DNA of 64,000 bases, from NCBI RefSeq assembly GCF_029017505.1, contig NZ_JAQGEI010000036.1:1-64000 (forward strand), given 5' to 3'. The position numbers were made by a program, and so were the translations under genes. Position 1 is the stretch's first letter. Every line of letters begins with the position of its first letter. The notes under the pieces are model-generated. The model saw nothing but the letters and a program-made list of their open reading frames with translations. It was not told where the DNA came from and did not search any database. Below, piece after piece: positions 12,442-49,390 of the stretch. Source of the stretch: Sedimenticola hydrogenitrophicus (GTDB taxonomy: Bacteria; Pseudomonadota; Gammaproteobacteria; Chromatiales; Chromatiaceae).

Positions 12442-13623
12442 ATGATCCCACGTCTCCTCTCCAGCACATTGCAACGGCTGGCCGCCTCGTTTCCAATCGT
12501 GGCAGTCACCGGGCCACGCCAGTCCGGGAAAACGACATTGAGCCGGGCCATCTTCGCCGACAAGCCATACGTTAACCTTGAGGACCCGACGGAAAGGGCC
12601 TTTGCCCAGGAAGACCCCAAGGGCTTTCTGGCCCGTTTTTACCAGGGGGCTATTTTCGACGAAGCCCAGCGCTGGCCAAACCTGTTTTCCCATCTTCAGG
12701 GAATGGTCGATGAAAATCGTGTTCCGGGCCGCTTTATCCTGACCGGCTCCCAGCAGTTCGGGTTGCTTTCCGGAGTGACTCAATCACTGGCGGGCCGGGT
12801 GGGACTGACCCGGTTGCTGCCGCTGGCCTTGGCCGAGACTCCGGAGCTCCGCGATGGTGCGGCCGACCTTGATACCCTGATGGTGCAAGGCGGCTACCCC
12901 ATCCTGCACGCCGAACCGGTTAGCCATACCGACTGGTTTTCCAGCTACGTGGCCACCTACATCGAACGTGATGTCCGCCAAGTGCTCAACATTCAAGACC
13001 TTTCCACTTTCCAGCGTTTTCTGCGCCTGTGCGCTGGCCGCACCGGCCAGTTGCTCAACCTGAGCACCTTGGCCGGCGAAAGCGGAATTGCCGCCAGCAC
13101 CGCCCGGGCCTGGATGTCGGTTCTGGAAGCCAGCGATCTCGTGTTCCTGCTCCCTCCCTATCACCGCAATTTCGGCAAGCGCCTGGTTAAATCCCCCAAG
13201 CTGTACTTCGTCGATGTCGGTCTGGCTTGTTGGCTGCTGGGTATCCGCGACGCCGATGTTCTGCGCCTGCATCCCCTGCGTGGAGCCCTCTTTGAAACCC
13301 TGGTGGTAAGCGAATTCCTCAAGGATCGCCACAACCAAGGACTGCCGCCCGATCTCTATTTCTGGCGCGACAATAACGGGGTTGAGGCAGATCTGCTCTT
13401 TGAGCGGCAAGGAAAATTACAAACCGTGGAAATCAAGTCGGGCCAGACGATTACCGGCGACTACATCCAGGCCGGCCGTAAATCAGCCCGCTTTGCCGGC
13501 GACGAAGCCCTCACCCCTTGGCTGATTTACGGCGGCGAAGAGGAATATCTACGCAGCGGCGTACAGGTCATAAGCTGGAAAAAGATTACCCCTGGGAGTC
13601 TTTTGGATTTAGGACTCGCGTAG
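12442..13623 (+). CDS. AAA_14/DUF4143 P-loop ATPase
   Basis: 393 residues. Walker A is GPRQSGKTTL (about residues 24-33), Walker B lies in GAIFDEAQRWP and sensor 1 in FILTGSQQF. The C-terminal DUF4143 part contains YIERDV, YFVDVGLACWLLG and the nuclease-like ending VEADLLF...VEIKSG, resembling the D-ExK core of restriction-like folds. Genes of this kind are widespread, often scattered singly in genomes, and their role is unsettled; some are suspected toxin-like or defence elements. It stands alone here between a palindromic repeat and convergent merC, whose 3' end it overlaps by 38 bases. Confidence 0.9.
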   Translation: MIPRLLSSTLQRLAASFPIVAVTGPRQSGKTTLSRAIFADKPYVNLEDPTERAFAQEDPKGFLARFYQGAIFDEAQRWPNLFSHLQGMVDENRVPGRFILTGSQQFGLLSGVTQSLAGRVGLTRLLPLALAETPELRDGAADLDTLMVQGGYPILHAEPVSHTDWFSSYVATYIERDVRQVLNIQDLSTFQRFLRLCAGRTGQLLNLSTLAGESGIAASTARAWMSVLEASDLVFLLPPYHRNFGKRLVKSPKLYFVDVGLACWLLGIRDADVLRLHPLRGALFETLVVSEFLKDRHNQGLPPDLYFWRDNNGVEADLLFERQGKLQTVEIKSGQTITGDYIQAGRKSARFAGDEALTPWLIYGGEEEYLRSGVQVISWKKITPGSLLDLGLA

Positions 13624-13969
13624 GAACTCCCTCGCAGCGACGCAACAGCACGATATCCCACGCGGATGCCGCGACCAGGGCAGCCAGTCCGGCATAGGCG
13701 AGCGGCACCAGGAACCACAGCGCCGCGAAGGCGACCAGGCTTGCCACCACGCCCAGCACAAAAGGCCCGTTCCGGCCATGGCGCCGGCGCGAGCTTTGCA
13801 ACCCCCAAAGCGTGATGCCGAGAAACAGCACGAACAGGGGGATCAGCACCAGGTCATTGATAAGAAATCCCGCGCCGATGGACGAAAGACCGGCAAGAAA
13901 GGGCGCGAACCCGAGGCAGCAGGCGCCGCTGATGGCGGAGCCCGTCGGGCCGATGATCTGTTTCAGCAT
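13586..13969 (-). CDS. merC: MerC-like mercury transport membrane protein
   Basis: 127 residues from the ATG seven bases after the merA stop; a further in-frame ATG at 14008 would overlap merA and lacks a ribosome-binding site. Four hydrophobic segments are evident, and the first contains the vicinal pair ACCLGF, the Hg(II)-binding cysteines of MerC. A second cysteine lies near the C terminus (LLRRC). The protein would bring Hg(II) across the inner membrane to the MerA reductase. It is co-transcribed after merA, the reverse of classical order, and its end overlaps the convergent ATPase gene. A 90 percent identical fragment of its 3' end is at 9865-9947. Confidence 0.78.
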   Translation of the reverse strand: MLKQIIGPTGSAISGACCLGFAPFLAGLSSIGAGFLINDLVLIPLFVLFLGITLWGLQSSRRRHGRNGPFVLGVVASLVAFAALWFLVPLAYAGLAALVAASAWDIVLLRRCEGVPTRVLNPKDSQG

Positions 13970-13976
13970 GTCCGCT

Positions 13977-15615
<1,639 letters not shown>

Positions 15616-23763: not shown

Positions 23764-23793
23764 GTCGTTCTCCTTAGAGGTTGTTTGCCGCAA

Positions 23794-24635: not shown

Positions 24636-24818
24636 TTACTTCGCGTCATCGCCCCCGATGCGCCGGCACGCCTTGCGGATGAATCCCATCTGCCGGTCGT
24701 AATTCGTACACCCCGAACACATTATGAGGTGGAGGCGTAGTGCGACACGCTCCCTGAACGACAGGGGCCGGTCCTGTTTCTCCGATAGCAGTTTCGTGGT
24801 CTGTTTGCAGTTCAGCAT
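24636..24818 (-). CDS. Small zinc-finger anti-sigma factor
   Basis: 60 residues from the ATG eight bases into the gap after the sigma gene. The H-x3-C-x2-C signature reads HLIMCSGC, with a further Cys near the N terminus (MLNC), as in ZAS-type anti-sigma proteins. It has no membrane segment, so it would be a soluble partner. It directly follows the ECF sigma gene and is presumably its inhibitor, releasing it on redox or metal stress. Confidence 0.75.
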   Translation of the reverse strand: MLNCKQTTKLLSEKQDRPLSFRERVALRLHLIMCSGCTNYDRQMGFIRKACRRIGGDDAK

Positions 24819-25429: not shown

Positions 25430-25806
25430 GATCTGCCCGCGGTCAATGAAACAGGGACTATTGTAAACACCAGCATGCGCAAAAGGTATCTATATGCGTC
25501 TGCAGGTATAGACGCGACATGGCGACTATCCTTACAGGCAGGATGGCATGCGCCTACCGGTTTACCCACTCTCAAAACTACAGCCCGTAGGATGCGGTGA
25601 GTAAAACGAACCGCATCAGTCCAGCGGCCAGCCAATGATGCGGTTCGCAAGCTCACCAGCATCCTACCCCGAAATCCGGTCATGGAGCGCCCCGTGGGCG
25701 CCGTCGGCGGACACGGCCCTCAGGTGTGCGATCGAATCAGTGAAATATTTCACCGCCGGGAGCCGGTCTCATGCACTGAGCGATGGAAGATAATGAGGAG
25801 ATTGAA
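25430..25806. repeat. Divergent intergenic region with a GTAGGATG palindrome and an operator-like dyad
   Basis: A palindrome at 25587-25667 has arms GTAGGATGCGGTGAG...CCGCATCA and complement. Nearer the downstream gene, GTGAAATATTTCAC (25740-25753) is a perfect 14-bp dyad, 53 bp before its start codon, a candidate operator. Confidence 0.6.
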
Positions 25807-26265
25807 ATGCGCCAATTCCTGATGGCCGGTCTGGTTGTGTTGGCCCCTGCTATAAGCGCCCCTGTGTTGGCGGAGACGCAAGTCATCGAGTTGACCCAGG
25901 TGCCGTGTCAGTTCCTGGAGAGCGAGAGAGGTATCGATCGGGGCTTTTCATCCCAGAGCATCGGCGATTGCCAGGCGATCAACCAGCGGACGGGCGACCA
26001 GCGCCTGGCCGAGGCCAAGGTGCTGACGCTCAAGCCCGGGCGTTATGTATTCCGGGTCAGCAACAAAAATGTACCCTATGAACTGGGTTTCTGGCTGCGC
26101 GGTGACGGTCTGGTCAATCGCGCCCGGTTGCCCAGCGTCTCGGGTGGCGGACTGACCACCGGCAAGACCCAGGACTACCCGGTCGAGCTGAAGCCGGGTG
26201 AGTATGTCTACTCCTGCCCCCTCAATCCGACCCCCGACTACAAGCTGATCGTCAGTGGCGGCTGA
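25807..26265 (+). CDS. Secreted protein of unknown function, possibly cupredoxin-like
   Basis: 152 residues from the ATG after GGAG; eight further codons upstream lack a ribosome site. A signal peptide (MRQFLMAGLVVLAPAISAPVLA) leads into a beta-rich domain with KPGRYVFRVSNKNVPYELGFWLRG and a C-terminal LKPGEYVYSCPLNPTPDYKLIVSGG. The single Cys in the YxYSCPLNPTPxY segment recalls the metal-loop region of cupredoxins, but the expected His ligands are missing. The divergent ECF sigma/anti-sigma pair may control it. Function not recognised. Confidence 0.65.
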   Translation: MRQFLMAGLVVLAPAISAPVLAETQVIELTQVPCQFLESERGIDRGFSSQSIGDCQAINQRTGDQRLAEAKVLTLKPGRYVFRVSNKNVPYELGFWLRGDGLVNRARLPSVSGGGLTTGKTQDYPVELKPGEYVYSCPLNPTPDYKLIVSGG

Positions 26266-31426: not shown

Positions 31427-31578
31427 GCGGCACCTCCCTGTGCCGCACCCTGACGGGCGGCCTCCGGCCGTGAAAATTGGCTCTCCTGCCAATTTTTCAT
31501 GCGGCAGGCACCTCCCTGTGCCGCACCCTCACGGGCGGCCTCCGGCCGTGAAAATTGTCTCTCCTGCCAATTTTTCAT
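31423..31578 (-). CDS. 51-residue mini-ORF made of a tandem duplication, coupled to both neighbours
   Basis: The frame starts at an ATG overlapping the stop of the glutamate synthase-like gene (ATGA) and ends in a TGA overlapping the ATG of the acetolactate synthase-like gene (ATGA). It encodes two near-identical units beginning MKNWQE, each with QFSRPEAAR and GAAQGGA; the units are 26 and 25 residues. The DNA repeat also holds hairpins (AAAATTGGC/GCCAATTTT with AGGAGA in the loop), so it may be a mobile palindrome that inserted in frame, or an attenuator, instead of a functional peptide. Not a recognised family. Confidence 0.5.
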   Translation of the reverse strand: MKNWQERQFSRPEAAREGAAQGGACRMKNWQESQFSRPEAARQGAAQGGAA

Positions 31579-33281
31579 GAAACGTCCTCCATGGTTTGAT
31601 GTTTATCTTCACCGACCTGTTTGGTGCCGGGAAGCGCTGCTTGCCCGGAGCCATCGACTTCGCAACACTCCCGGTCGATATGGGTCAGGCACATTTTCGG
31701 CATGAAGCTGCCGGGGTCGGCCTCGTCCAGATAGAGCCGCCAGGCCTCGGGCGGATTGTCCGAGAGCAGGCAGCCGTGCTTGAGGTAGGGGAAAACCTGG
31801 TCATAACGCCGTACCGTCTCCTGGTTAATGCGCCGGTAGATATGGGTACGGGTCAATTCGTCGGTGTGGCACAGGCCCGCCGAGGCGATGATTTCGGCGG
31901 TGGCATGCACGGTCTTGGCATGGAACTGGGTCACCCGGCGCGCCTTGTCGGTCACCACCAGGCCGCGGTAGAGGCGGGGATCCTGGGTCGCCACCCCCGA
32001 GGGGCAGTGGTTGCTGTTGCAGGTGAGCGACTGGACACAGCCGAGCGCCAGCATCATGCCGCGCGCGCTGTTGCAGATATCCGCCCCCAGCGCCAGGTTC
32101 TTGACCAGATGGAAGGCGGTGAACACCTTGCCCGAGGCGATGATACGGATGTGTTGGCGCAGACCAAAACCGGTCAGGCAGTCGTCGACGAAGGCCAGTG
32201 CCTCGCGCAGCGGCATGCCGACGGAGTTGGTGTACTCCAGCGGAGCCGCGCCGGTGCCCCCCTCGCCGCCGTCCACAGTGATGAAATCGGGCGTGATACC
32301 GCTGGCCACCATCGTCTTGCAGATGGCGATGAATTCGCTCTTGCGCCCGATCGATAACTTGAACCCCACCGGCTTGCCGTCGGAGAGGTCGCGCAGCAGC
32401 TTGACGAAGTCGAGTAGCTGCAACGGCGTGGAGAAGGCGGAGTGGGCGGGCGGCGAGTTGACCTGGGTGGCGACCGGTACATCCCGTATCGCGGCAATCT
32501 CGGGGGTGTTCTTGTCGGCCGGGAGGATGCCGCCATGCCCCGGCTTCGCCCCCTGGGAGAGTTTGATCTCGATCATCCTGATATTCGGCAGTGTCGCCTT
32601 TTCGCGAAAGGTCTCGGGGGAGAACCGGCCGGCGTGGTCGCGGCAGCCGAAATAACCGGTGCCGATCTGCCACACCAGGTCCCCTCCCGGTTCCAGGTGG
32701 TAGGGGCTTATGCCGCCCTCGCCGGTGTTGTGGTAGAAACCGCCCGCCTTGGCCCCGCCGTTGAGCGCGAGTATGGCATTGCGGCTCAGGGCGCCGAAGC
32801 TCATGGCGGAGATATTGAAAATGCTCGCCCGGTAGGGTTGCCGGCAATCGGGGCCACCGACGCTGACCCGCAGGTCATGCTCCACCTCGGTTACATCGAT
32901 GGCGGAGATGGAGTGGCCGATCCATTCGTAGCCGTCACGATAGGTGTCTATCTGGGTGCCGAAGGGTACGCTCTCCAGTGCGCCCTTGGCGCGCTGGTAG
33001 ACAATGTTGCGGAACATCCGGTTGATCGGCGCGCCGTCGGTGTCCGACTCGATCAGGTACTGGCGGATGAAGGGGCGCAGCCACTCCATGAACCAGCGCC
33101 CACGCCCGAACAGCGGATAATTCCGGCGTAGCGAATGATGTGGCTGGGACATGTCATACAGGCCCAGCAGTATCAGCGGGATCAGTACCAGGAGCACCCA
33201 TACGCCCGGTGGCCATAGCCAATAAAGCAGCGCGACGATTGCCAGCGACCCGACGGTAAACAGAAAAAAATTGCGGTGCAT
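31575..33281 (-). CDS. FMN-binding glutamate synthase-like protein, membrane-anchored
   Basis: 568 residues from the ATG after GAGG. Two N-terminal membrane segments (about residues 5-45) precede a TIM-barrel of the GltB central/FMN type: SAMSFGALS, GEGGISPYH, KPGHGG, GGEGGTGAAP and the iron-sulfur region CNSNHCPSGVATQDP. It lacks the amidotransferase and GXGXG domains of full glutamate synthase. Stand-alone members of this family have unknown or varied substrates. It is the first gene of the operon leading through the mini-ORF to the acetolactate synthase-like and aldehyde dehydrogenase genes. Confidence 0.88.
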   Translation of the reverse strand: MHRNFFLFTVGSLAIVALLYWLWPPGVWVLLVLIPLILLGLYDMSQPHHSLRRNYPLFGRGRWFMEWLRPFIRQYLIESDTDGAPINRMFRNIVYQRAKGALESVPFGTQIDTYRDGYEWIGHSISAIDVTEVEHDLRVSVGGPDCRQPYRASIFNISAMSFGALSRNAILALNGGAKAGGFYHNTGEGGISPYHLEPGGDLVWQIGTGYFGCRDHAGRFSPETFREKATLPNIRMIEIKLSQGAKPGHGGILPADKNTPEIAAIRDVPVATQVNSPPAHSAFSTPLQLLDFVKLLRDLSDGKPVGFKLSIGRKSEFIAICKTMVASGITPDFITVDGGEGGTGAAPLEYTNSVGMPLREALAFVDDCLTGFGLRQHIRIIASGKVFTAFHLVKNLALGADICNSARGMMLALGCVQSLTCNSNHCPSGVATQDPRLYRGLVVTDKARRVTQFHAKTVHATAEIIASAGLCHTDELTRTHIYRRINQETVRRYDQVFPYLKHGCLLSDNPPEAWRLYLDEADPGSFMPKMCLTHIDRECCEVDGSGQAALPGTKQVGEDKHQTMEDVS

Positions 33282-36089: not shown

Positions 36090-38531
36090 TCAAGGCATCC
36101 CCGCGTCCGCCAGAGGCAAGTGCAACTCCACCGTCTCCGGCGCCAGGCAGACCTGGTCGTTGCAGGCCTGCAATCCCAATCTTAACGGCACGATCCGCGA
36201 TGCCGGTGCAACGGGTTCGATCGTGGCCTCGATCTGCACCTTGCCCTGGTAGAGCGAGAGGGGTTCGCGCTGAAATTCGAGCTGTTGGCGCTCGCCCACC
36301 GGGTAGTCGATTTGTCCCAGGTGCCATCCCCCGGTGCCGGGCACGAGGGCGAGGGTGGTGGGGATCAGATTCTCCTGCAAGGGCTGGTGGGCATTGACAT
36401 GCCAGCCCGGCGGGATCTCCAGTTCCACGGTGACGCGCCGGGCCCCGACTTGCGCGGCGCTGATGCGTATGCCGCCGAGGGCAGCGTAGCGACGCCTGCC
36501 CCACTCGCCATGCAGCAGGTCGTCGGCGCCGGCCAGCAGGTAACCGAAACCCGGGGGATGGCGCGCGACGGGTTCGGCGAAGGCCGCCAGCGTGGCTCTG
36601 GCCCGCTCGCCGTAATCGAACCAGTCGGTGCGCACCGAAAGCATCTGCAGCACCCGCAGGGCCACCGAGTTGCCGGAGGGCATGGAGGTGTCGCCGCCCA
36701 TCTCCCTGGCACGGCCCAGGGCGGTGAGCTGGTTTTCCTGGTGACTCATGTAAAATCCGCCCCGCGTCTCGTCCCAGAAGCGTTCCAGCATGGCGTCGGC
36801 CAGTTCCCGCGCCCGGACCAGCCAGAGCCTGTCGCCGGTGCCGTCGTACAGCTGCAGCAGCCCCTCGGCGAAATAGGCGTAGTCCTCCTGGAGGGCCGGA
36901 ATGGATGAGCTGCCATCGAGATGCACGCGCCACAGCTCGCCGGTCTCGCGGTGGTTTTGCTCCCACAGGAAGCGCGCGGCCCGTGCCGCCGCCTCGGTAT
37001 AGCGGGGCTCGCCGAGCAGATCGCCCGCCTGAGCCAGGGTGGTGATCATCATGCCGTTCCAGGCGGTGAGGATCTTGTCGTCGCGCAGGGGATGGGGGCG
37101 CGCCTCCCGCGCCTGGTAGAGGCGTTCGCGGATGCGGTCGATGTGATCCAGAAGCTGGGTCTGCGACATGCCGTTCTCCCCGGCAAACTCGGCCAGGGGT
37201 CGCGGCAGATGCAGGATGTTGCCGCCCTCGAAGTTGCCGTTGTCGGTGACGCCGAACAGGTTAATGGCCAGTGCCGCGTCCTCCGCGGGCAGCACGCCGC
37301 GTAGCTGGTCCGGCGTCCAGAGGAAGAAGGTGCCCTCACGGCCCTCGCTGTCGGCATCGATGGCGGAGTAGAAGGCGCCTTCCGCCGAGCGCATGTCGCG
37401 CAGTACGTAATCCAGGGTCTGGCTGGCGACGCGGCGATAGAGTGGATTGCCGGTCAACCGCCAGGCCAGAAGATAGACCCGGGCGAGCTGGGCCTGGTTG
37501 TAGAGCATCTTCTCGAAGTGGGGCACCAGCCAGTCGTTGTCGGTGGCGTAGCGGTGGAAACCGCCGCCTACCTGATCGTGGATGCCGCCCCGGGCAATCG
37601 CATCGAGGGTGGTTCCGATCGCCTCCAGCAGTGCCGGTTCGGGGCTGCGTTCAGCCGCGTTCAGCAGCAGCATGAGCAGCGGTTCGCGGGGGAACTTGGG
37701 CGCCGGGCCGAAGCCGCCCTGCAGTTCGTCGTGTGTCTCCAACGCCTCCGTCACCGCCGCCTGAATCGCCTCGCGGCCCACTTCGCCCGCCATGGCCTGG
37801 CGCGCCTGCACCGCGGCGAGTACCTGGGCGACGCGTTCGGCCTGGTCCAATACCTCCTGCCGCTTGCCGTCCCAAAGTGCGGCAACCCGTGTCACCAGGT
37901 CGCGGAACGGGTCGGGTGGGTAGTAGGTGCCGCCATGAAAGGGCTTGCCGTCCGGGGTGAGGAAGCCGTTGAGCGGCCAGCCGCCGCGACCGGCAATCAG
38001 CTGCACCGCGGTCATGTAGGTCTGATCCACCTCGGGACGGCGCTCCCGATCCACCTTGATGGCGACGAAGTGGCGGTTGAGCAGCTCGGCGATGGCCGGG
38101 TTTTCGAAACTCTCGCGTTCCATGACGTGGCACCAGTGGCAGGTGGCGTAGCCGATGGAGAGGAAGATCGGCTTGTTCTCCCGCTTAGCCTTCTCGAACG
38201 CCTCGGCTCCCCAGGCATACCAGTCCACCGGATTGTGGGCGTGCTGGATCAGGTAGGGGGAGTCCTCCAGGATCAACCGGTTGGTGTAGCGCGGGCTGCC
38301 GTCGGGCCGCAGGTGTTCGGTGCGGGGTCGGTAGTCCGCGCCCTTGGCCTTCAGGGCCGCGTCGATGCGTGTGCGGAGATCCATGGGGCGTGGGGCGAGC
38401 GTGACCGGCGTGCTGCCTCCTGGCACGCCGGCATACCGTCCATCCATGGAGATAACCGGTGTTTCCGTTGCGAGCGCCGGGGACAGGGAGGTGGCCAACA
38501 GGAGGGCAAGAAAAAAGCGGGGCAATTTCAT
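36090..38531 (-). CDS. Periplasmic YyaL-type thioredoxin-domain protein fused to a DsbD N-terminal-like domain
   Basis: 813 residues. A signal peptide ([21 protein letters not shown]) is unusual for this family, as YyaL/DUF255 proteins are normally cytoplasmic. The thioredoxin-like domain has [14 protein letters not shown] (about residues 128-141) with the family's long flanking segments; an (alpha/alpha)6 barrel follows (about 260-680). The last 120 residues ([16 protein letters not shown]...[13 protein letters not shown]) match the DsbD alpha domain, whose cysteine pair passes electrons in the periplasm. The start overlaps the arsC stop by one base. The fusion suggests a periplasmic thiol-reducing enzyme fed by a DsbD-like donor; substrate unknown. 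Confidence 0.85.
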
Positions 38532-39117: not shown

Positions 39118-40083
39118 TCAATGATCCTTCAGGGCACCACCGCAACTGCTGCCCTGGCCGGCGGTACAGCCGTAGCAATGGTCGGCCACCCGGATCGGAC
39201 GGCCGGCAAAGTCGTGATCAAGCAGTATGGAGAGGTGGACGGGTTCGGTGCAGCCGCCCGGTGGCAGCCCCAGCATCTGGTTGAAGTCGCAGTCATACAC
39301 CCGGCCCTGCCAGTCCACCGATATCAGGTTCCGGCACATCACCGAGGCCAGGTTGCCTTCCTGGTGCGCACCCTTGAGCAGGTCCATGTAGTCAAAGAAT
39401 TTGTTGTGGGAGATGAGTTGGCTGCCGAAGCGGCGGATCGGCATGTTGGCCAGGGCGTACAGCTGGTTGAAGACAATGCCGAAGCGGGACTGCAACTGCG
39501 TCCGGTAGTCGGCCTCCAGTTGCCGCTGATCGGGCGGCAGGCTCGGACCGTCAGGGTTGTAGACCAGATTCAGTCGTTTGCCGCTGTCCGGTTCTCCGTA
39601 ACCCAACGCATTGAGTTTGCGCAGGCCGGCGAGACTGCTGCCAAACACCCCCGAGCCCCGTTGCCGGTCCACATTCTCCTCCAGGTAGCAGGGTAGCGAG
39701 GCGATGATTTCCACGTCGTTATCGGCGAGGAACCGCGCCAGATCCTCCTGGCCGGGTTCGTTGAGTATAGTGAGATTACAGCGGTCGATGACATGCAGCC
39801 CTTGTTCACGCGCGGCGATCACCAGGTGGCGGAAGTCCGGGTTGAGTTCCGGGGCGCCGCCGGTGAGATCCAGGGTGGTGATACCCTGCCGGTCCGCGAA
39901 GTGTAATAACAGGGCCATGGTCGTCCGGGTCATCGCTTCCACGCGTTTCGGACCTGCCGCCACATGGCAATGCTGGCAGGACTGGTTACAGCGGTAGCCG
40001 AGGTTGGCCTGGAGGATTTCCAGCCGGCTGCGCCGCAGGAGCGGAAAGTCGGTATTCAACAATAGTGGAAGCATTTCATGCAT
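39118..40083 (-). CDS. arsS: Radical SAM protein ArsS (arsenosugar biosynthesis)
   Basis: 321 residues. The radical SAM cluster is CNQSCQHC (C-x3-C-x2-C form, about residues 32-39), and LDLTGGAPELN is the GGE-like SAM motif. The C terminus has the ArsS-type Cys cluster HCYGCTAGQGSSCGG, which probably binds a second iron-sulfur centre. ArsS is proposed to add the 5'-deoxyadenosyl group to dimethylated arsenic to form an arsenosugar precursor. It sits between a cytochrome c gene (16 bases upstream) and arsC. An arsM methyltransferase is not in the window. Confidence 0.9.
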   Translation of the reverse strand: MHEMLPLLLNTDFPLLRRSRLEILQANLGYRCNQSCQHCHVAAGPKRVEAMTRTTMALLLHFADRQGITTLDLTGGAPELNPDFRHLVIAAREQGLHVIDRCNLTILNEPGQEDLARFLADNDVEIIASLPCYLEENVDRQRGSGVFGSSLAGLRKLNALGYGEPDSGKRLNLVYNPDGPSLPPDQRQLEADYRTQLQSRFGIVFNQLYALANMPIRRFGSQLISHNKFFDYMDLLKGAHQEGNLASVMCRNLISVDWQGRVYDCDFNQMLGLPPGGCTEPVHLSILLDHDFAGRPIRVADHCYGCTAGQGSSCGGALKDH

Positions 40084-40099: not shown

Positions 40100-40432
40100 T
40101 CAGCGCAGGCTGTTGAAGTAGCTGGCGAGATCCTTCATATCTTGATCCGAAAGTCCCTTGGCCTGGCTCAGCATGATCGGGTTGGTGCGTTCCTTGTGCT
40201 TGAACGCCTTCAATTGCTTCAGCAGGTAGAGTCCCTTCTGTCCGGCCAGGTTGGGGTACATGGGATTGGCGCTGATCCCTTCCCGTCCGTGACAGGAGAC
40301 ACAGCCCAGGCTCTGGGCCTTCTCTTTGCCCGCGCTCGCGTCGCCGGTGGCCAGGCTCTGGCCGGAAGCGGCCAGCGCCAGCGCGCCAATAAGGATCAGG
40401 GTTGCAGGTCTCTTTCGCGGAAGGTACTTCAT
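40100..40432 (-). CDS. Monohaem class I cytochrome c
   Basis: 110 residues from the ATG after AGGAGC; the long upstream extension is not coding. A signal peptide (ending GQSLA) precedes CVSCHG (about residues 45-50) and the axial Met region NPIML, as in small soluble cytochromes of the c4/c5/c553 type. A periplasmic electron carrier. First gene of a probable operon with arsS, arsC, the YyaL-like gene and YeeE, a striking mix of electron transfer, arsenic and thiol chemistry. Confidence 0.9.
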   Translation of the reverse strand: MKYLPRKRPATLILIGALALAASGQSLATGDASAGKEKAQSLGCVSCHGREGISANPMYPNLAGQKGLYLLKQLKAFKHKERTNPIMLSQAKGLSDQDMKDLASYFNSLR

Positions 40433-40739
40433 GGTTGCTCCTGTAAGGTCGTGATCTATCTCTGTGCCGATGGCACCGTTCGAGAAAGTTGGTCGGCGAG
40501 CAAGTCGATTCCTTACAGGCAACAACGCGTTTCCTGGCTTGCGACTCAGCTTGTAGCCTGGATGGAGCCCACTCAATGGGAGCTTAACGTACAGTGGGTG
40601 GGGAAGCCCGGTAACGATCTCGCGCTGAACAAACTCCAAGCGATGGCTAATGGGTTAGTAAGCGGCTGGTGGTGGGGTTTGAATAATGTCGGGGATATCG
40701 GGCGCTATTCTTTCGCATTTGCAGAACTTGCCTGATATA

Positions 40740-41464: not shown

Positions 41465-42694
41465 TCATGGCAATGGAATATCCCGCTCAAACAGGGTAAA
41501 GACCGACGCATCGGCAGCATCGAGCGCACGCCGCAGCAATCCGCTGCCTTTACCGGCCCAGCCGTTATCAAGCATTGCCTGGTAGAAGTCCCGGTAAAAG
41601 CGGTCCGGTTCGACCCGGATGCGCAAGCGCAGGGAACCGGCTTGTGGATCGCGCGGCTGCCGGTAGTCGAGACTGATGCTCTCGCCCGGCGCCAGGCGGG
41701 TGTCGGATAACTCCTCGCTCAGGTCCATGCTCACCTGACGGGCGATGATCCGCTCCTCCCGGGTCTGGGGCAGCAGCGTACCGTCCGCGTCCAACTGTAC
41801 CGCCTCCATCACCACGCGGGGCGTCACGTAGGTGGGAAAATGGTGGCCGACGCCGCTGTTGGTCAGGTTGAGCCGGGCGGAGAGCGTCGGGCCGGTGGCC
41901 GTGACACCGTCAAGCCCGATCTCCACCCCCGACAGCACGGTATCCTTGTCGTGAATGCCGCGCCACAGGTGGCGGCGGTCCGGCATGTGACAGGACTGGC
42001 AGCTCTGTCCGGCCGCCGCCTGGGGGCTGGCGCGCCACTCCGCGAAGGTGTTTTCCAGCAGTTTCCCGTTGAGGGCGAAGCCGTCCGCCTCGAACTGGTG
42101 GCAGGCGGCACAGAAGCGTGAAGACTCGAAGGCCGCGTCCGCGGTAAAGCCACCGTGTGGTCCAGCGGTTTTCTCGCCCCCGTCCCGGGCGGGCGGGCCG
42201 TGAATCTCCCAGGTGCGCAGGTGGCAGGCGGCGCAGATCAGCCCCTGATTGAACAGTGGGCCGGTGGGCACGCCGACCGGCGTGACTGGGACCGCGCCGC
42301 TGTTACCCTCGGCGATCCAGGTCGCCAGTTCCTCGGCCTGCTCCGCCAGAGGGGCGTGGCAGCGCAGACAGGCCTGGTGTTCCTCGCGGTTGGTGGGGTC
42401 CATCTCAATGAGCTGTCCAAGCAGGCCGGGACCCATGGCGTGGGCGTGCAGGCTGCGCTGCCAATCCTGGAACTGGTGGGGATGGCAGGCGCCGCAGGCG
42501 CGGGGATCCAGGGAGCTCTCCAGTGGAGAAAAACCGGCCGGTGCCTCCCCCTGGGGTGGCAGCGGGCGCTGCCAGTGGCGGCTGAGGAAGCTGTCGATGG
42601 CAGCGACGCTATCGTCGTCCGCCATTGATACCGTTGCGCCGCTCATCAGCAGCGTCCAGCAGGCCAACGCGACCCGAAAACGGAGCCGGTTCAT
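41465..42694 (-). CDS. Pentahaem c-type cytochrome
   Basis: 409 residues. A signal peptide (ending TVSMA) is followed by five CxxCH sites: CGACH, CLRCH, CAACH (twice) and CQSCH, all in the first 240 residues. The C-terminal third (TATGPTLSARLNLTNSGVGHHFPTYVTPRVV) is a beta-rich domain without haem, with the GHHFPT motif seen in cytochrome c-554-type multihaem proteins. It would be a periplasmic redox protein. The gene start overlaps the stop of the His-rich protein (ATGA), and that gene is likewise coupled to YeeE. Electron partner and substrate unknown; a sulfur compound is a fair guess. Confidence 0.88.
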   Translation of the reverse strand: MNRLRFRVALACWTLLMSGATVSMADDDSVAAIDSFLSRHWQRPLPPQGEAPAGFSPLESSLDPRACGACHPHQFQDWQRSLHAHAMGPGLLGQLIEMDPTNREEHQACLRCHAPLAEQAEELATWIAEGNSGAVPVTPVGVPTGPLFNQGLICAACHLRTWEIHGPPARDGGEKTAGPHGGFTADAAFESSRFCAACHQFEADGFALNGKLLENTFAEWRASPQAAAGQSCQSCHMPDRRHLWRGIHDKDTVLSGVEIGLDGVTATGPTLSARLNLTNSGVGHHFPTYVTPRVVMEAVQLDADGTLLPQTREERIIARQVSMDLSEELSDTRLAPGESISLDYRQPRDPQAGSLRLRIRVEPDRFYRDFYQAMLDNGWAGKGSGLLRRALDAADASVFTLFERDIPLP

Positions 42695-43434
42695 GACGAC
42701 ACCCGCCGCAGCTCCGTCATCCAGTCGTCCACCGAAATGGCCAGATAACCGGTCAATTCCAGCTCACGCTCCTCGAACACATCCTGCTCCGGGTGGGCCT
42801 GTTGCCAGGCATTGATCACGACATCTCGGTGCAGGATCAGGGCCTCGATGTGCGGCCGGAACAGCCGCAACATGGCGCTGATCCAGCGGTTCAGCGGCCA
42901 GGAGGGCCAGGCATGGCCGATGGAGAAACGCGGCAGCATCTCAATGACGCTCCCGGCCGGATACCAGGTCTCACCGGTGACCCAGCGGTTGGCGGCGAAC
43001 AGCCCGATGGGCCTGCCCCAGGCATCCATGGAGATGCCAGCCAGATGGGCGATGGCCTGGTCCCCCAGGGGCCAGGGCACACTGGCCAGGTGGTAATCCA
43101 GGGGGCGGGTATCCCCGGGCATGCCGCCGGCGCGCAGAAAGGTATGGAAGTGGCCGTGTTCGGCGTGGTCGGCGCGGTGGGCGTGGTAGTAGTACTGGCC
43201 ATGGGTCTCGTCATCGAACACATCATCCTTTGGATAGTGCTCCAGCTCGATGAACTCCCCCTGGCCCTTGAGCGCCTCGCCCACCAGGTTGAGCCCGACC
43301 CGTTCCAGTGCCCGCATACAGGTATTGACGTCGTCGCCCGCCATGAGCATCTGCTTAATTGCCCCGGCGGGTAGCCGGGCCGGATCGGGGGGTGACAGGA
43401 TGGCTGGTGGACGGGATATCACTGCACTGTTCAT
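42691..43434 (-). CDS. Conserved-looking His-rich protein of unknown function
   Basis: 247 residues; family not recognised with certainty. No signal peptide or membrane segment. A His-rich stretch, GQYYYHAHRADHAEHGHFHTFLR (about residues 79-101 in two blocks), suggests metal binding. RWVTGETWYPA and the helical C terminus are otherwise unremarkable. Start and stop both overlap neighbouring genes by ATGA, tying it between the YeeE transporter and the pentahaem cytochrome; a supporting cytoplasmic role in their pathway is inferred. The longer upstream frame is a shadow of the transporter gene. Confidence 0.75.
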   Translation of the reverse strand: MNSAVISRPPAILSPPDPARLPAGAIKQMLMAGDDVNTCMRALERVGLNLVGEALKGQGEFIELEHYPKDDVFDDETHGQYYYHAHRADHAEHGHFHTFLRAGGMPGDTRPLDYHLASVPWPLGDQAIAHLAGISMDAWGRPIGLFAANRWVTGETWYPAGSVIEMLPRFSIGHAWPSWPLNRWISAMLRLFRPHIEALILHRDVVINAWQQAHPEQDVFEERELELTGYLAISVDDWMTELRRVSS

Positions 43435-44651
43435 CGGTTCGAAAGTCCGAACAGGGGCCGCCAGCGCACGCCCAGCACGCTGCCGGCTAGGGCGCAGACG
43501 ATCCACAGCCAGCCGTGCAGGCTGAGCGAGGCGACCCCGGAGAAGAAGGCGCCGATATTGCAGCCGTAGGCGATGCGGGCGCCGTAGCCCATCAGCAGGC
43601 CGCCGATAATGGCAGCCGCCAGGGAACGCACCGGGATGCGGAAGGATGGCAGGAAGCGACCACCCAGGCCGGTCGCGGCCAGCGCCCCGAACAGGATGCC
43701 GATATCCATCACCGAGGTCACATCCTGTAACACACTGCCCTGGAGCGCCGCCTGCTGAAAGCCCCCGGTCCAGAAGGGCGCGGTGGCGGGATCCCAGCCG
43801 AATAACAGCGCGGCCTTGGCGCCCCACAGGGTGAAGGCCCAGGTGATGGTCCAGGGGTGGCCGGCGGTGAGCAGCGTGGCCAGACTGAGCAGGGCAAGCG
43901 CCAGGGCGGCGGCGGTCAGACTCCAGGGGCCGGTCGACAGGCGCCGCCAGAATCCCAGCGGCCTGCCGGGCGAGGCATCGCGCTGGATACCCCAGCGACG
44001 CAACAGCAGGGCGAGCAGGCCGATGAACCCAAGCTGTAGGGCGACCGCCAACGGATAGCCCAGGGGCTCGGCAAGCGACTGGGTCTGTAACGACGGCAGT
44101 GTCTGCCACTGGCCCATATGCAGGCTGGCCCAGAAGGAGCCGGCGCAAAACGCGATCAGGGTGATGGCCATGCGCGGCGCACCGCCGCCGGCCTTGTAGA
44201 GGGTGCCGGAGCCGCAGCCGTCACCCAGTTGCATACCGATGCCGAACAGGAAGGCGCCGGCGGCCACCTGCAGGCCGGCCGGCGCCCAGGCGCCGACCAG
44301 GCCGCGACCGAGAAACTGGCCCTCACTGAGAAAGGGCGCGAACAGCAGCGTGGCGACGGCGAGCATGAGCAGTTGGGCCTGCAGCGCCGGGGTTTCGCGC
44401 TTTAGCAGGAAGCGTCGGTAGGCGCTGGTAAAACCAAAGGCGCCATGTTGCAGGGAGATGCCCAGGGCAACGCCCAACAGCAGCAGTAGCGCCATGCGCG
44501 GTGTGCCGACAACCGCCACCAGCACCAGGACAACGAGTGACGCTATTGAAAATACGCCCCACTGAATGGTTCTACGGGAGCCGTCGAGGGATACCGACGC
44601 GGTGGGCGACACCTTCTCCGCGTCCGATATTCTGTTCAGGGATTCATTCAT
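43431..44651 (-). CDS. YeeE/YedE-family sulfur transporter 2
   Basis: 406 residues with about ten to eleven membrane helices after a 30-residue polar N terminus. The twin cysteine motifs GDGCGSGTLYK and AYGCNIGAFFSG match the thiosulfate-translocating members (TsuA type), where conserved cysteines line the pathway. It heads an operon with a His-rich protein and a pentahaem cytochrome, both ATGA-coupled. It probably imports a sulfur species or passes it to a partner. Confidence 0.88.
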   Translation of the reverse strand: MNESLNRISDAEKVSPTASVSLDGSRRTIQWGVFSIASLVVLVLVAVVGTPRMALLLLLGVALGISLQHGAFGFTSAYRRFLLKRETPALQAQLLMLAVATLLFAPFLSEGQFLGRGLVGAWAPAGLQVAAGAFLFGIGMQLGDGCGSGTLYKAGGGAPRMAITLIAFCAGSFWASLHMGQWQTLPSLQTQSLAEPLGYPLAVALQLGFIGLLALLLRRWGIQRDASPGRPLGFWRRLSTGPWSLTAAALALALLSLATLLTAGHPWTITWAFTLWGAKAALLFGWDPATAPFWTGGFQQAALQGSVLQDVTSVMDIGILFGALAATGLGGRFLPSFRIPVRSLAAAIIGGLLMGYGARIAYGCNIGAFFSGVASLSLHGWLWIVCALAGSVLGVRWRPLFGLSNR

Positions 44652-44736
44652 CAAATGTGATTAATCAGTACCTAATGGAAGCCAATTCCGGGCGATTGCC
44701 GCCTGGATGGGCGGCGGGCCCAAGCCCGCCCCCACT

Positions 44737-44885: not shown

Positions 44886-45650
44886 CTATTTCGCGGAGCA
44901 GGGGTTCATCGGCTTGGCTGCGCACGGATTCATCGGTTTCGCGGCGCAAGGGTTCATCGGCTTCGCCGCGCAAGGGTTCTTGGCTGCACAAGGGTTCATT
45001 GCCCCCATTTTGTGCTGCTTGGCAAAGCCCTTCTGCTGTTCGGTGACGTAGGCGGTGAGGGCCGCCAGTTCCCGGGAGTCCCAGGGCAACGGTTTGGCGG
45101 CCATGGGTGCGACCATGCACAGCTGAACCATCTCATCGGCGTGGACCGCCTTCAGCTTGAACTGATCATTGGCCATCTGCACATAGTGGGGATACGGTTG
45201 CGCGAATGAGGCCTGGAACATGGCGTTGTTGTTGTGGCAAGAGTTGCAGGACATACCGTTGGTGCTCAGGCTGGTATCACTGAACAGCTTGGCTCCCTCG
45301 GCAACCAGGGCCGCGTGGTCGCCCTTGTAGGGCTTGTAGTCCGCGGGGCGTGTCACGTCCGCGGACATGTTTTTGGCCGCGCAGGGGTTCATCGGTTTCG
45401 CGGCACAGGGGTTCATCGGCTTGGCCGCGCAGGGGTTCATTGGCTTCGCGGCGCAGGGATTCATCGGCTTCGCGGCGCAGGGATTCATCGGCTTGGCCGC
45501 GCAGGGATTCATCGGCTTGGCCGCGCAGGGATTCATCGGCTTCGCCGCACAGGGATTGGCGGCCTGCAGTGGGCCGCTGCCGAGGGCGACTACAGCGAGG
45601 CATCCGCCGATAATGGCGGTCAGTTTCTTCCTGGAAAAAGTCGTGGTCAT
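44886..45650 (-). CDS. Secreted NPCAAKPM-repeat protein with embedded monohaem cytochrome c domain
   Basis: 254 residues. A signal peptide (SRKKLTAIIGGCLAVVALG...LQA) precedes eight tandem octapeptides of form NPCAAKPM, then a cytochrome c domain of about 115 residues with CNSCHNN (haem) and QLCMVAPM (likely axial Met), and finally five more NPC(A/S)AK units to the C terminus. The 13 repeat cysteines are regularly spaced, as expected for binding soft metals, for disulfide chains or for modification. AAGGAG precedes the ATG. A related repeat-only protein lies at 46837 with the same promoter motif. Function unknown; periplasmic metal or thiol chemistry is inferred. Confidence 0.85.
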   Translation of the reverse strand: MTTTFSRKKLTAIIGGCLAVVALGSGPLQAANPCAAKPMNPCAAKPMNPCAAKPMNPCAAKPMNPCAAKPMNPCAAKPMNPCAAKPMNPCAAKNMSADVTRPADYKPYKGDHAALVAEGAKLFSDTSLSTNGMSCNSCHNNNAMFQASFAQPYPHYVQMANDQFKLKAVHADEMVQLCMVAPMAAKPLPWDSRELAALTAYVTEQQKGFAKQHKMGAMNPCAAKNPCAAKPMNPCAAKPMNPCAAKPMNPCSAK

Positions 45651-45713
45651 AATTATTCTCCTTTGATGGGTGAAATCCTGATATCTCCTCAGGCGGGAAT
45701 CTCCAGCGGTTAG

Positions 45714-45739
45714 TCGCTGGAATTTAATATTCCTTACAA
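45714..45739 (-). promoter_or_regulatory. Conserved promoter motif of the NPCAAK genes, copy 1
   Basis: On the minus strand TGTAAGGAAT...CCAGCGAC, 22 of 26 positions shared with 47166-47191. TGTAAGGA followed by GCGACT about 15 bases later could be an ECF-type promoter. Confidence 0.5.
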
Positions 45740-45805
45740 TGACTGTTCAGCTCCTGGTCCCTGTATTCAGGGGTATCCACGCGCCTATGGCGCCGTTCCG
45801 GTGAC

Positions 45806-46624
45806 CTAAGGGTAGACGGAATCCACACCCGTAGTAATCCGCTGTTCATTCAGATCCTGATCCTCCCAAGGCAACTGACGAAAATCGAACCCCATTTCGA
45901 CAGTGGGCTTGATCACCCGAAAATAGGGTGAAACATCGAAGTCCCGCGGCACAAACAGACTGTGATGCCGAACCCGGAGGCTCTCTTTGGTGCACTCGCG
46001 ACAGCCGGGCGTGGAAGCGGATGCCACGCTGGCGATCGGCAGGATCGGGTAGCGAATAGACTGAAAACACTGGGCGATCAAGGTCGAGCAGATCGCCCGT
46101 GTCGGATCGCCACTGCCGAAAGCGAGCATGCGGCGGCGCCACTGTACCGGCACGGGGGGTGTCGGGAGCAGGTAGCGCGCCAGATCGATCACATTCCTGA
46201 GATCGTAGTGTTGCCCGACCCGGGATAGCGCGTAGGCGATCAGCTGTTCAAGTTCGGCTGCCCGCAGACCGATCGGACGGCAGATTCTGCTATGCAGGCC
46301 ATTAAACTCGGAAATGCCGACCAGGCGGATACCCTCAGTGATATCGGCCTCGACAAAGCAGGGTGGCTCACTATCACCGGCCACCCCGGGAAGCCTGTCT
46401 TCCTGCGCCCCGACGTAGAGCGCCGCATGCGACCAGGTGGACTGGGTCAGGTACTTGATCGCCACACTCACTCGACTGTTCCCTTCGACCAGCAGCACAT
46501 CCCCCGGTTGAATCGTGGAGACGAGCAGAGGCCCGGGTGTCGGCCGCGACGTATCATGAATATGCGCCGGTTTGCTCAGCCAGCGGCCGAGCCGTCCGCC
46601 CACCCATTCCAATACCCTGAGCAT
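45806..46624 (-). CDS. YiiX/YebB-like NlpC/P60-superfamily cysteine hydrolase
   Basis: 272 residues. The permuted papain fold is suggested by QPGDVLLVEG...STWSHAALYVG (catalytic His) and AICSTLIAQCF (catalytic Cys), the order typical of YiiX-type proteins, in which the His precedes the Cys. No clear signal peptide. GGGAG lies six bases before the ATG. Such enzymes cleave amide or acyl bonds in lipids or peptides. It stands between the two NPCAAK genes on the same strand but with about 150-base gaps, so co-regulation is unproven. Confidence 0.75.
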   Translation of the reverse strand: MLRVLEWVGGRLGRWLSKPAHIHDTSRPTPGPLLVSTIQPGDVLLVEGNSRVSVAIKYLTQSTWSHAALYVGAQEDRLPGVAGDSEPPCFVEADITEGIRLVGISEFNGLHSRICRPIGLRAAELEQLIAYALSRVGQHYDLRNVIDLARYLLPTPPVPVQWRRRMLAFGSGDPTRAICSTLIAQCFQSIRYPILPIASVASASTPGCRECTKESLRVRHHSLFVPRDFDVSPYFRVIKPTVEMGFDFRQLPWEDQDLNEQRITTGVDSVYP

Positions 46625-46662
46625 ATCACTCTCCCGTATGACGGCAATTTAGCTGCATTGGT

Positions 46663-46705
46663 GAGGAGCGGTACAAGCATGTACCGTTTCCGGACCTTAG
46701 GATGG
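46663..46705 (+). repeat. Dispersed GAGGAG repeat copy
   Basis: GAGGAGCGGTACAAGCATGTACCG, then TTTCCGGACCTTAGGATGGC; the palindromic core here is GGTACA-N4-TGTACC. Confidence 0.65.
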
Positions 46706-46836
46706 CACGCGCCCACCGGCTTATTCACCCTATATTTACGATTTTAGTTCATTTGCAGCTAACAAGCCAACCCTTGGCGGAAGATAATGAGCATGAACCG
46801 CGCAATGGCGGCGGGCACCGGCCCGCCGCCAACCGG

Positions 46837-47109
46837 TTATTTCGCGGAGCAGGGGTTCATCGGCTTGGCCGCGCAAGGGTTCTTGGCCGCACAGGGATTG
46901 GCCGCGCAGGGATTGGCCGCGCAGGGATTCATGGCTTTCGCCGCGCAGGGGTTGGCCGCACACGGATTCATCGGTTTTGCCGCACAGGGATTCGCCGGTT
47001 TGGCCGCGCAGGGATTAGCGGCGTAGAGGGGGCTGCCGCCGAGGGCGACCACGGCGAGACATCCGCTGATGAGGGCCGTCAGTTTCTTCCTGGAACAGGG
47101 GTTTTTCAT
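46837..47109 (-). CDS. Small secreted NPCAAK-repeat protein
   Basis: 90 residues. A signal peptide closely related to that of the larger NPCAAK protein (RKKLTALISGCLAVVALGG) leads into a mature part made almost entirely of NPCAA/NPCAAKPM units: nine NPC motifs in about 60 residues, ending NPCSAK like its relative. There is no haem site. Repeat lengths vary (5, 6 or 8 residues), so it has diverged by slippage. Likely a paralogue that gained or lost the cytochrome domain. A promoter motif shared with the larger gene is at 47166. Possible metal-binding or thiol-buffer protein; no modification enzyme (such as a DUF692 protein) is encoded nearby. Confidence 0.8.
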   Translation of the reverse strand: MKNPCSRKKLTALISGCLAVVALGGSPLYAANPCAAKPANPCAAKPMNPCAANPCAAKAMNPCAANPCAANPCAAKNPCAAKPMNPCSAK

Positions 47110-47165
47110 GTTGCTTCTCCTTTGGTGAAAAATGTTGGGATTTCTTTTAAGTGGAACTTGCTAAA

Positions 47166-47191
47166 GTCGCTGGAGCTTAGTGTTCCTTACA
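47166..47191 (-). promoter_or_regulatory. Conserved promoter motif of the NPCAAK genes, copy 2
   Basis: TGTAAGGAACACTAAGCTCC then AGCGAC on the minus strand, 57 bases before the coding region. The remaining gap to 47367 holds nothing else I can name. Confidence 0.5.
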
Positions 47192-48814: not shown

Positions 48815-49390
48815 TCAGGACGGGTCGCTCCAGCGCCGCTCCTCGAATACCGGGTCGAGTGGTGTATGGAACAGGTGGTTGGCGTAGTTACTGAGGGTTT
48901 TCACCGCTAGGGCGAGGACGATCTCGAGGATCTGCCGTTCGCTATAGCCGGCCGCCAGGAATGCCTCGGTGTCAGCCTTTGACGGCAGGCCGCGCTTGTT
49001 CGCCACAACCCGGGTGAATTCAGACAACGCCGCCAGCCGGGTATCGGTGATGGCGGTGCCGTTGCGGATGGCGTCGGTTACTTCCGGGGCCAGCTTGGAC
49101 TTCATGTCGGCCAGGAAGGAGTGCGCGGAGACGCAGTATTCGCAACCGTTTTCGCGGCTGATGGTAAGGAAGACCACCTCCTGCTCCGGTGCCGAGAAGC
49201 CGGAATCCGTGCGGAATGCCGCGTAGCCGGTCAGGTAGGTCTCAAGCAGGCCCGGCGAATTGACCATATTGCTATACATGTTGGGGATGAAGCCAAGATT
49301 GGCCTGAGCGGTTTCGAGCAGCGTTTTTCCTTTCGGCTCGGCCGTTTCGATGGTTTGAGCGGGAAGGGTGATCTGGTATTCGGCAAGCAT
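48815..49390 (-). CDS. AhpD-like carboxymuconolactone decarboxylase-family protein, TetR-regulated
   Basis: 191 residues, a close paralogue of the protein at 20120: shared ENGCEYCVSAHS redox site, FIPNMYSNMVNSPGLLETYL and KTLSNYANHLFHTPLDP. It is expected to handle peroxides or reactive carbonyl compounds. The start lies 22 bases from a perfect operator-type palindrome, TGTACCGATCGGTACA, which also occurs before the TetR gene just upstream, so it is very likely derepressed when that regulator binds its ligand. Confidence 0.88.
   Translation of the reverse strand: MLAEYQITLPAQTIETAEPKGKTLLETAQANLGFIPNMYSNMVNSPGLLETYLTGYAAFRTDSGFSAPEQEVVFLTISRENGCEYCVSAHSFLADMKSKLAPEVTDAIRNGTAITDTRLAALSEFTRVVANKRGLPSKADTEAFLAAGYSERQILEIVLALAVKTLSNYANHLFHTPLDPVFEERRWSDPS

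Follow-up and report, generated by a model that had tools for sequence, protein, structure and literature searches.

Within a 64,000-nucleotide stretch of the Sedimenticola hydrogenitrophicus genome (RefSeq contig NZ_JAQGEI010000036.1, positions 1 to 64,000; hereafter the window), two genes encode secreted proteins with repeated Asn-Pro-Cys (NPC) units, and one of the two proteins has a haem domain set between blocks of repeats. What could such proteins do, and under whose control would they be made? The best explanation, in which we place moderate confidence, is that they belong to a thiol-stress regulon that supplies the periplasm with a poly-thiol buffer connected to c-type cytochromes. The two genes, the haem domain and the gene between them are as follows.

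44886..45650, minus strand: NPC-repeat cytochrome, 254 amino acids; signal peptide, 8 NPC units, SoxA/TsdA-type single-haem domain, 5 NPC units
44961..45374, minus strand: haem domain with short flanks, the basis of the alignment and of the AlphaFold model (pLDDT 87.9, pTM 0.81)
45806..46624, minus strand: C92 permuted-papain amidase (PF05708), between both NPC genes
46837..47109, minus strand: NPC-repeat-only secreted protein, 90 amino acids

Translation bore out the initial annotation, which had described a secreted pair with 13 and 9 NPC repeats, near-identical signal peptides and a haem domain inserted in the larger member. Both proteins carry Sec-type signal peptides, and a 28-residue stretch comprising the signal-peptide core and the first NPC is identical at 23 of 28 positions. 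In the cytochrome, 13 NPC units flank a single CNSCH haem motif, 8 before it and 5 after, with cysteines spaced by 8 residues (6 in one case). The 90-residue protein contains 10 NPC strings, the first of which (residue 3) lies inside the signal peptide, so that 9 remain in the mature part, at cysteine spacings of 5, 6 and 8; Pfam and NCBIfam profile searches, which did not extend to the published EGKCG and Buf2 profiles, gave no match for it, whether to DUF2282 or to another precursor signature. The codons of the 13 units vary (Asn is encoded 6 times by AAT and 7 times by AAC, Pro by three codons, and the first Ala by three codons, with one Ser in its place). Since the units thus differ at synonymous positions, the repeats look like a protein sequence kept under constraint more than like a recent DNA array.

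A promoter motif common to both genes had also been proposed, and the two cores indeed agree at 22 of 26 bases. When the whole 5.13-Mb genome was searched with the pattern TGTAAGG-N15-CGWCY, which had been widened stepwise and given its final form after the cytochrome c553 site was known, four matches were obtained, all in the window and all on the minus strand. They share one 22-kb stretch, each 55 to 80 bp ahead of a start codon: those of the two NPC genes, of a cytochrome c553 gene and of a sigma factor gene.

45712..45738, minus strand: extracytoplasmic function (ECF)-type promoter motif TGTAAGG-N15-CGACT of the NPC cytochrome, 61 bp before the ATG
47165..47191, minus strand: ECF-type promoter motif of the NPC-only gene, 55 bp before the ATG
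40491..40517, minus strand: ECF-type promoter motif of the cytochrome c553 gene, 58 bp before the ATG
25510..25536, minus strand: ECF-type promoter motif of the sigma gene, 80 bp before the ATG
40100..40432, minus strand: secreted cytochrome c553-like protein (PF00034), 110 amino acids
24824..25429, minus strand: ECF sigma factor, TIGR02943 (238.6 bits, cut-off 162.2)
24636..24818, minus strand: soluble zinc-finger anti-sigma, 60 amino acids, NF052368 (85.2 bits, cut-off 50) and PF13490, with the pattern C4...H-x3-C-x2-C

The motif before the sigma gene suggests autoregulation, and coregulation by an ECF-like factor, previously only surmised, now has a candidate sigma. When the genome was searched with an alignment of ten sigmas that lie close to family genes in other loci, this protein was also the top hit (257 bits, as against 43 for the second). 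A literature search for 'TIGR02943' returned only an unrelated phage paper.

A search for related loci identified 77 that encode relatives, spanning Gamma-, Beta- and Alphaproteobacteria, Mariprofundaceae, Tectomicrobia and one Nitrospinota metagenome-assembled genome. With the window included, the 78 loci divide into 23 with both gene types, 32 with just the fusion, 11 with just a repeat-only protein and 12 with neither, according to script rules that miss some broken or unusual cases. The haem is enclosed by repeats in 52 of the 55 fusions. The 948 NPC units counted in 92 proteins are most often followed by AAK (468), and their cysteine spacing is mostly 6, 8 or 5 with a wide range; such variable spacing speaks for independent thiols and not for a rigid fold. 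In a sample of the phylum, the haem domain was found at E 1e-20 in 39 of 299 genomes, 32 of them from one family, which holds the Mariprofundaceae iron oxidisers, and at E 1e-10 in 36 of 74 genomes of this family. Asn/Asp-Pro-Cys repeats are present in 16 of 18 translated loci from this sample and absent from L140 and L141. In a search of relatives, 9 of 55 matched at E 0.001, of which 7 were counted as strong carriers (E < 1e-50). The repeats thus recur from Sedimenticola to Mariprofundaceae, with acidic EGE repeats in their place in Halomonadaceae; a lack of conservation among related strains, which the initial annotation had named as a ground for refutation, is not what is observed. In two further loci (L078, 9701-10801; L072, 4177-4884), NPC repeats lie N-terminal to other domains, which presumably resemble cytochrome P460. 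Literature searches, which covered mainly freely available papers, yielded no match for 'NPCAAK' and, in the titles and abstract openings listed, no description of the family.

The promoter motif accompanies the family. A relaxed regular expression precedes 28 of 101 NPC and cytochrome (CYT) genes, the two window genes included, versus 6 of 563 other genes in family loci; it matches 60 times in 1.27 Mb of related loci and not at all in 0.78 Mb of control regions. Its score of 0 among 9 repeat-less cytochrome genes reflects a scan window that starts too far downstream, and a separate scan showed that 4 of them carry the motif. A looser expression, run without a chance control, matches in 10 of the 11 short loci L142-L152. 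In 7 related loci the first gene after the motif encodes a thioredoxin.

The Cys...His-x3-Cys-x2-Cys pattern of the 60-residue anti-sigma recurs in all 21 neighbouring zinc-finger anti-sigma (ZAS) proteins; we call it soluble since no membrane helix was apparent by eye. According to a passage of PMC4960319, disulfide sensing by RsrA depends on its N-terminal zinc-binding Cys, which HHCC types such as ChrR lack; the passage also mentions a study confounding this rule. Given the RsrA-type Cys-His-Cys-Cys zinc site, thiol stress is by analogy the simplest guess for the signal sensed. Soft metals could act on the same cysteines.

What kind of haem protein is the larger member? The NPC cytochrome matches the SoxA-TsdA_cyt-c profile PF21342 (E 6.9e-11, 42.4 bits, cut-off 27), as does a Halomonas form (31.1 bits); with 36.9 bits it stays below the cut-off of 110 of the SoxA equivalog TIGR04484. 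When the AlphaFold model was compared by VIA-align, Rhodovulum SoxA ranked first (Z 8.6, rmsd 2.6 over 87 residues), followed by TsdA (Z 7.1-7.3). The cysteine of DEMVQLC, which in a weak phmmer match aligns with that of SoxA EQMINAC, is kept in 88 of 88 domain rows of a hidden Markov model (HMM) alignment that demanded no residue; the alignment has 127 rows in all, including 39 repeat-only or partial hits that lack those columns, and some loci are duplicate records. An earlier set of 59 domains and the haem-domain alignment had rows chosen by a regular expression demanding this cysteine, and its invariance there is uninformative. The conserved residue is probably the distal ligand, and the haem is predicted to be Cys-ligated, of the His/Cys type. 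PMC4423706 describes how enzymes of the SoxA family use the haem Cys to link thiosulfate with a thiolate, and names Arg119 and Ser127 as active-site residues of TsdA (A. vinosum numbering). At the matching offsets from the cysteine (-4 and +4, counted without superposition), our alignment has Met in 88 of 88 and Pro in 87 of 88 rows, so the domain is unlikely to be a thiosulfate dehydrogenase.

Other genes near these parts are the following.

43431..44654, minus strand: YeeE/YedE sulfur transporter (PF04143), by Pfam
42691..43434, minus strand: DUF6969 protein (PF22308), the commonest family neighbour
41465..42694, minus strand: five-haem c554-like multihaem cytochrome
39118..40083, minus strand: ArsS arsenosugar radical SAM protein (TIGR04167, 446.3 bits, cut-off 300), downstream of c553
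36090..38531, minus strand: secreted DsbH/DUF255 thioredoxin domain fused to DsbD_N, downstream of the c553 motif
48815..49390, minus strand: AhpD-like CMD protein
25783..26265, plus strand: member of a secreted family without Pfam match that we label CUPR, divergent from the sigma gene

On the same strand behind the c553 motif lie ArsS, an arsenate-reductase-like phosphatase (below cut-off), the DsbH-DsbD_N protein and a DUF302 protein; the DsbH-DsbD_N gene may be co-transcribed from this motif. We compared all open reading frames of the 77 family loci and of 39 control regions with the same queries at 80 bits. The controls were 20-kb regions placed by hand on contigs of carrier genomes (a short 40th, L126, served in the promoter-motif count only), and clusters came from a simple longest-frame caller with Louvain clustering. 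With 0 of 39 controls in each case, the family loci contained DUF6969 (40 of 77), ECF sigma (34), five-haem cytochrome (28), AhpD (22), ZAS (22), YedE (21), GOR-type flavoprotein (18), C92 (14), thioredoxin (TRX, 13), CcdA (12) and MerR-type regulators (10). DUF302, CUPR, HD-GYP, U147, TetR and RclR-like neighbours were likewise absent from the controls, and cluster c9 (12 of 77 versus 5 of 39) was not clearly enriched. The p-values of this comparison are too small, as closely related loci were kept unthinned, and at 150 bits ZAS drops to 3 of 77 (p 0.29; these are short proteins) and TRX to 8. A five-haem cytochrome relative adjoins the family gene in all 11 short loci L142-L152 (in L145 as a partial frame at the edge). 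Together with the motif-bearing c553 gene, the five-haem cytochrome beside the window NPC genes supports the proposed link to haem electron transfer. On a Pseudanabaena galeata plasmid, a gene (L091, 3869-4531) fuses seven DPCAAK units to a thioredoxin; it adjoins a second thioredoxin, CcdA and a Pyr_redox_2 flavoprotein and is flanked by transposase genes.

Mercury genes also lie in the window, where the MerA is the sole match in its genome at E 1e-130.

13977..15572, minus strand: MerA (TIGR02053, 574 bits, cut-off 454)
13586..14008, minus strand: MerC (PF03203, 45.4 bits, cut-off 27.6)

The GOR cluster comprises 25 mixed proteins. A scan of 9 identified 7 as MerA and one (L021) as a glutathione reductase; the ninth (L037) falls below the MerA cut-off. 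MerA is thus in at least 7 of the 77 family loci. We then searched 50 carrier genomes, which represent the own genome and 50 of the 77 loci, with two loci sharing one genome and all 7 known MerA loci included. MerA was found in at least 21 of the 50, with the best 25 candidates scored in many genomes. Among the relatives, 3 of 7 strong NPC carriers have MerA versus 3 of 48 others (uncorrected for phylogeny). A MerR above cut-off adjoins an NPC gene in L013, and an arsenite methyltransferase (NF008823, 320.7 bits, cut-off 263) lies near the NPC cytochrome of L144 (2608-3291), with a similar frame in L146 by eye.

We therefore favour a thiol-stress regulon; the regulon itself and the protein architecture are well supported, the chemistry and the target inferred. 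The cytoplasmic RsrA-type zinc anti-sigma would release the sigma once oxidants or a soft metal had reacted with its cysteines, and the freed ECF sigma would transcribe its own gene, both NPC genes and cytochrome c553 from what appear to be TGTAAGG-N15-CGWCY promoters. Once exported by Sec, the flexible Pro-Cys repeats would give the periplasm many separate thiols, able to take up soft metals and metalloids such as Hg(II) and As(III) as well as oxidants. Dedicated periplasmic thioredoxins fed by CcdA would recharge these thiols, a role that in Sedimenticola might perhaps fall to the DsbH-DsbD_N protein, and the SoxA-type His/Cys haem, the five-haem cytochrome and c553 would link the thiol pool to the respiratory chain. 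The direction of redox flow, the recharge step and the stress addressed are all put forward here as presumptions. A more specific version, which we offer tentatively and think unlikely, makes the NPC cytochrome a thiol:cytochrome c oxidoreductase that carries its substrate in the arms of the same protein; its Cys-ligated haem would make or break S-S or S-metal bonds on the flanking repeats and pass electrons to the five-haem cytochrome and c553. By analogy, and with the same low confidence, it might be regarded as an intramolecular version of SoxA acting on SoxY.

Several observations weigh against the thiol-stress regulon. The reversed promoter pattern has 3 genome matches versus 4 forward, which makes the count alone unremarkable (forward and reversed matches were 2 and 0 for the narrowest form, 3 and 4 for the middle form and 4 and 3 for the final one); with the two counts so close, the placement of the sites, and not their number, carries the argument. 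The 260 bp upstream of the window frames for AhpD, MerA, YedE, DUF302, U147, C92 and CUPR contained no TGTAAG-type string, and the relaxed expression, shaped on some of the same family loci, leaves 73 of the 101 NPC and CYT genes without a motif. The SoxA Z score of 8.6 is rated modest by the structure-comparison tool's own note, and a Foldseek search with the haem-domain model gave no match at E 0.001. TRX and CcdA are near only 13 and 12 of the 77 loci, neither was flagged near the window NPC genes in the neighbour clustering, and the recharge role proposed for the DsbH-DsbD_N protein is conjecture. The mer and ars partners vary from locus to locus, and 29 of the 50 searched genomes have no MerA at cut-off among the candidates scored.

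The most direct challenge comes from Halomonadaceae, where all 11 loci (L059-L069) encode the same haem domain with acidic EGE repeats and only 3 to 6 cysteines per whole frame; neither an NPC-repeat frame nor an EGKCG motif was found in these loci. Judging from these sequences, the haem domain can do without the repeat cysteines in some bacteria, an argument against an essential role for them. This leaves two readings, a further role of the arm (spacing, charge or ion binding) or a shift of function in Halomonadaceae. TGTAAGG-type sites with a variant second half lie upstream in several Halomonadaceae loci. Several also share clusters c24-c26, of which c25 is rhodanese-like by eye.

How do other explanations fare on the same evidence? 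The repeats might form a periplasmic metal trap that binds Hg, As, Cu and Ag directly, as a metallothionein would, with the haem domain a passenger or sensor and no redox cycling; this is a possibility we take seriously, even if we consider it rather unlikely. The MerA and MerC of the window are consistent with it, as are the true MerA proteins in other family loci, the MerR of L013, the enrichment of MerA among strong carriers, ArsS behind the c553 motif, the methyltransferase (ArsM) beside L144 and the Cys-, Met- and His-rich repeats of L142 (NPCSMKKH). The partnership is not fixed, as the genomes without MerA show, and a trap leaves the thioredoxin fusion, the pairing with CcdA and the conserved cytochrome partners unexplained. 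The metal sponge of the initial annotation is a conjecture that the nearby mer and ars genes fit, and that annotation's interpretation as a whole is supported in part, with the underlying observation confirmed. More doubtful is sulfur conjugation, in which the SoxA-like His/Cys haem would attach thiosulfate, sulfide or other sulfur to cysteines in the arms of the same protein, much as SoxAX modifies SoxY, with YedE importing the product or supplying the substrate. The PF21342 match, the TIGR04484 match below cut-off, the resemblance of the modelled fold to SoxA and TsdA, YedE in 21 of 77 loci and the thiolate chemistry of the SoxA family (PMC4423706, as cited above) all point this way. It is opposed by the Met and Pro residues at the TsdA Arg119/Ser127 offsets, by the presence of the family in iron oxidisers and nitrifiers and by the Halomonadaceae forms, which have no acceptor cysteines.

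We consider it improbable that the proteins serve as a redox wire, with repeats that hold the cytochrome in place or at a distance so that electrons can cross the periplasm or reach minerals, and with cysteines for metal bridging or cross-linking. The five-haem relative in all 11 short loci and the frequency of the haem domain in the family holding the Mariprofundaceae iron oxidisers would suit such a function; one haem per long flexible chain should make a poor wire, the NPC-only proteins are haem-free, and the thiol-repair and ECF context would go unexplained. Least probable by far is that the repeats are precursors of a ribosomally synthesized copper-binding peptide modified by an MNIO (DUF692) enzyme, like EGKCG oxazolins or bufferins, an idea suggested by secretion, sigma control and cysteines repeated near lysines. 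When the own genome and those of 46 of the 77 loci were searched for PF05114, no match was found in 31 of the 46 carrier genomes, whose completeness is not stated, and the one MNIO gene of the own genome is on another contig. DUF2282 and DUF2063 were not noticed by eye beside that gene, and a term search of the main text of PMC12452194 and PMC13097082 did not find 'NPC'. We thus largely reject this explanation, and the same result argues against the modified copper-binding peptides that the initial annotation had named for comparison. The MNIO gene itself (L083, 8759-9607) stands alone, with no bufferin gene noticed alongside; similar, lower-scoring single matches (251-276 bits) occur in the genomes of L003, L004 and L006-L009.

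Three narrower ideas were set aside. Nothing suggests that the system here is a plasmid system, as a plasmid search gave only the Pseudanabaena fusion and a Cupriavidus remnant without a CxxCH part in the frame read. A link to ergothioneine had been considered from cluster c30 (FGE-sulfatase and DinB_2), which we take to be EgtB-like genes; it is not clearly enriched (6 of 77 versus 1 of 39, p 0.25). Reactive chlorine as the specific target is only hinted at by an RclR-like regulator (109.7 bits, cut-off 400) and the AhpD- and GOR-like neighbours, and the clustered neighbours showed no evident chlorite enzyme, for which no dedicated search was made; we retain reactive chlorine as one possible oxidant.

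Elsewhere in the window, three paralogous small secreted proteins ending in STDI(I/V)xGG are encoded on the minus strand (10268-10537, 15836-16117 and 23488-24099), two of them within a 312-bp tandem duplication, and a 78-bp tandem repeat (1.9 copies, 97% matches) occupies 31429-31579.

To our knowledge, thiol pools are well known in the cytoplasm and hardly in the periplasm. This widespread family, often encoded near thioredoxin-CcdA, mer or ars genes, would offer a testable periplasmic counterpart, combining many thiols and a sulfur-type haem under a putative redox-sensing sigma. If the oxidoreductase proposal were true, a periplasmic thiol pool would be coupled directly to respiration, with a sigma switch of the RsrA type governing it. 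Carriers include iron oxidisers, nitrifiers, denitrifiers and tubeworm symbionts; the promoter motif and the marker domain allow the regulon to be traced among them, and the acidic EGE repeats of Halomonadaceae versus the cysteine repeats elsewhere provide a clean natural contrast.

Among known systems, metallothioneins share with the NPC proteins a high content of regularly placed cysteines. The NPC proteins differ in being secreted, in their isolated cysteines with Pro between them at spacings of mostly 6, 8 or 5 within a wide range, and in the haem fusion. The hypochlorite-scavenging MrpX/YedYZ/SigF-NrsF system of perchlorate reducers is alike in that, as PMC4623255 describes it, a sigma/anti-sigma pair controls a peptide of the periplasm in which a sacrificial sulfur amino acid abounds and which is served by dedicated repair; the NPC family has Cys for Met, thioredoxin and CcdA for methionine sulfoxide reductase and a zinc-finger anti-sigma for NrsF, and its repeats enclose a haem domain. 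SigmaR/RsrA of Streptomyces resembles it in the soluble zinc anti-sigma with Cys...His-x3-Cys-x2-Cys and in the thioredoxin genes that follow the motif in 7 related loci, whereas the NPC system has a TIGR02943 sigma in proteobacteria, a mainly periplasmic output and four genome sites. With the Cys-ligated cytochromes SoxA and TsdA, the haem domain shares PF21342 above cut-off, CxxCH, an invariant Cys at the predicted ligand place and fold matches of the model; it has one haem and no TsdA Arg or Ser at the matching offsets, and NPC units enclose it in 52 of 55 fusions. Bufferins and EGKCG oxazolins are likewise secreted Cys-rich or Cys-repeat proteins, some of them under sigma control and a few fused to cytochrome c and MerC (as reported in part of PMC12452194); the NPC family is without a conserved MNIO and differs in motif and anti-sigma. 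MrpX, sigmaR/RsrA, SoxA-SoxY and the bufferins each match one part only of the system described here.

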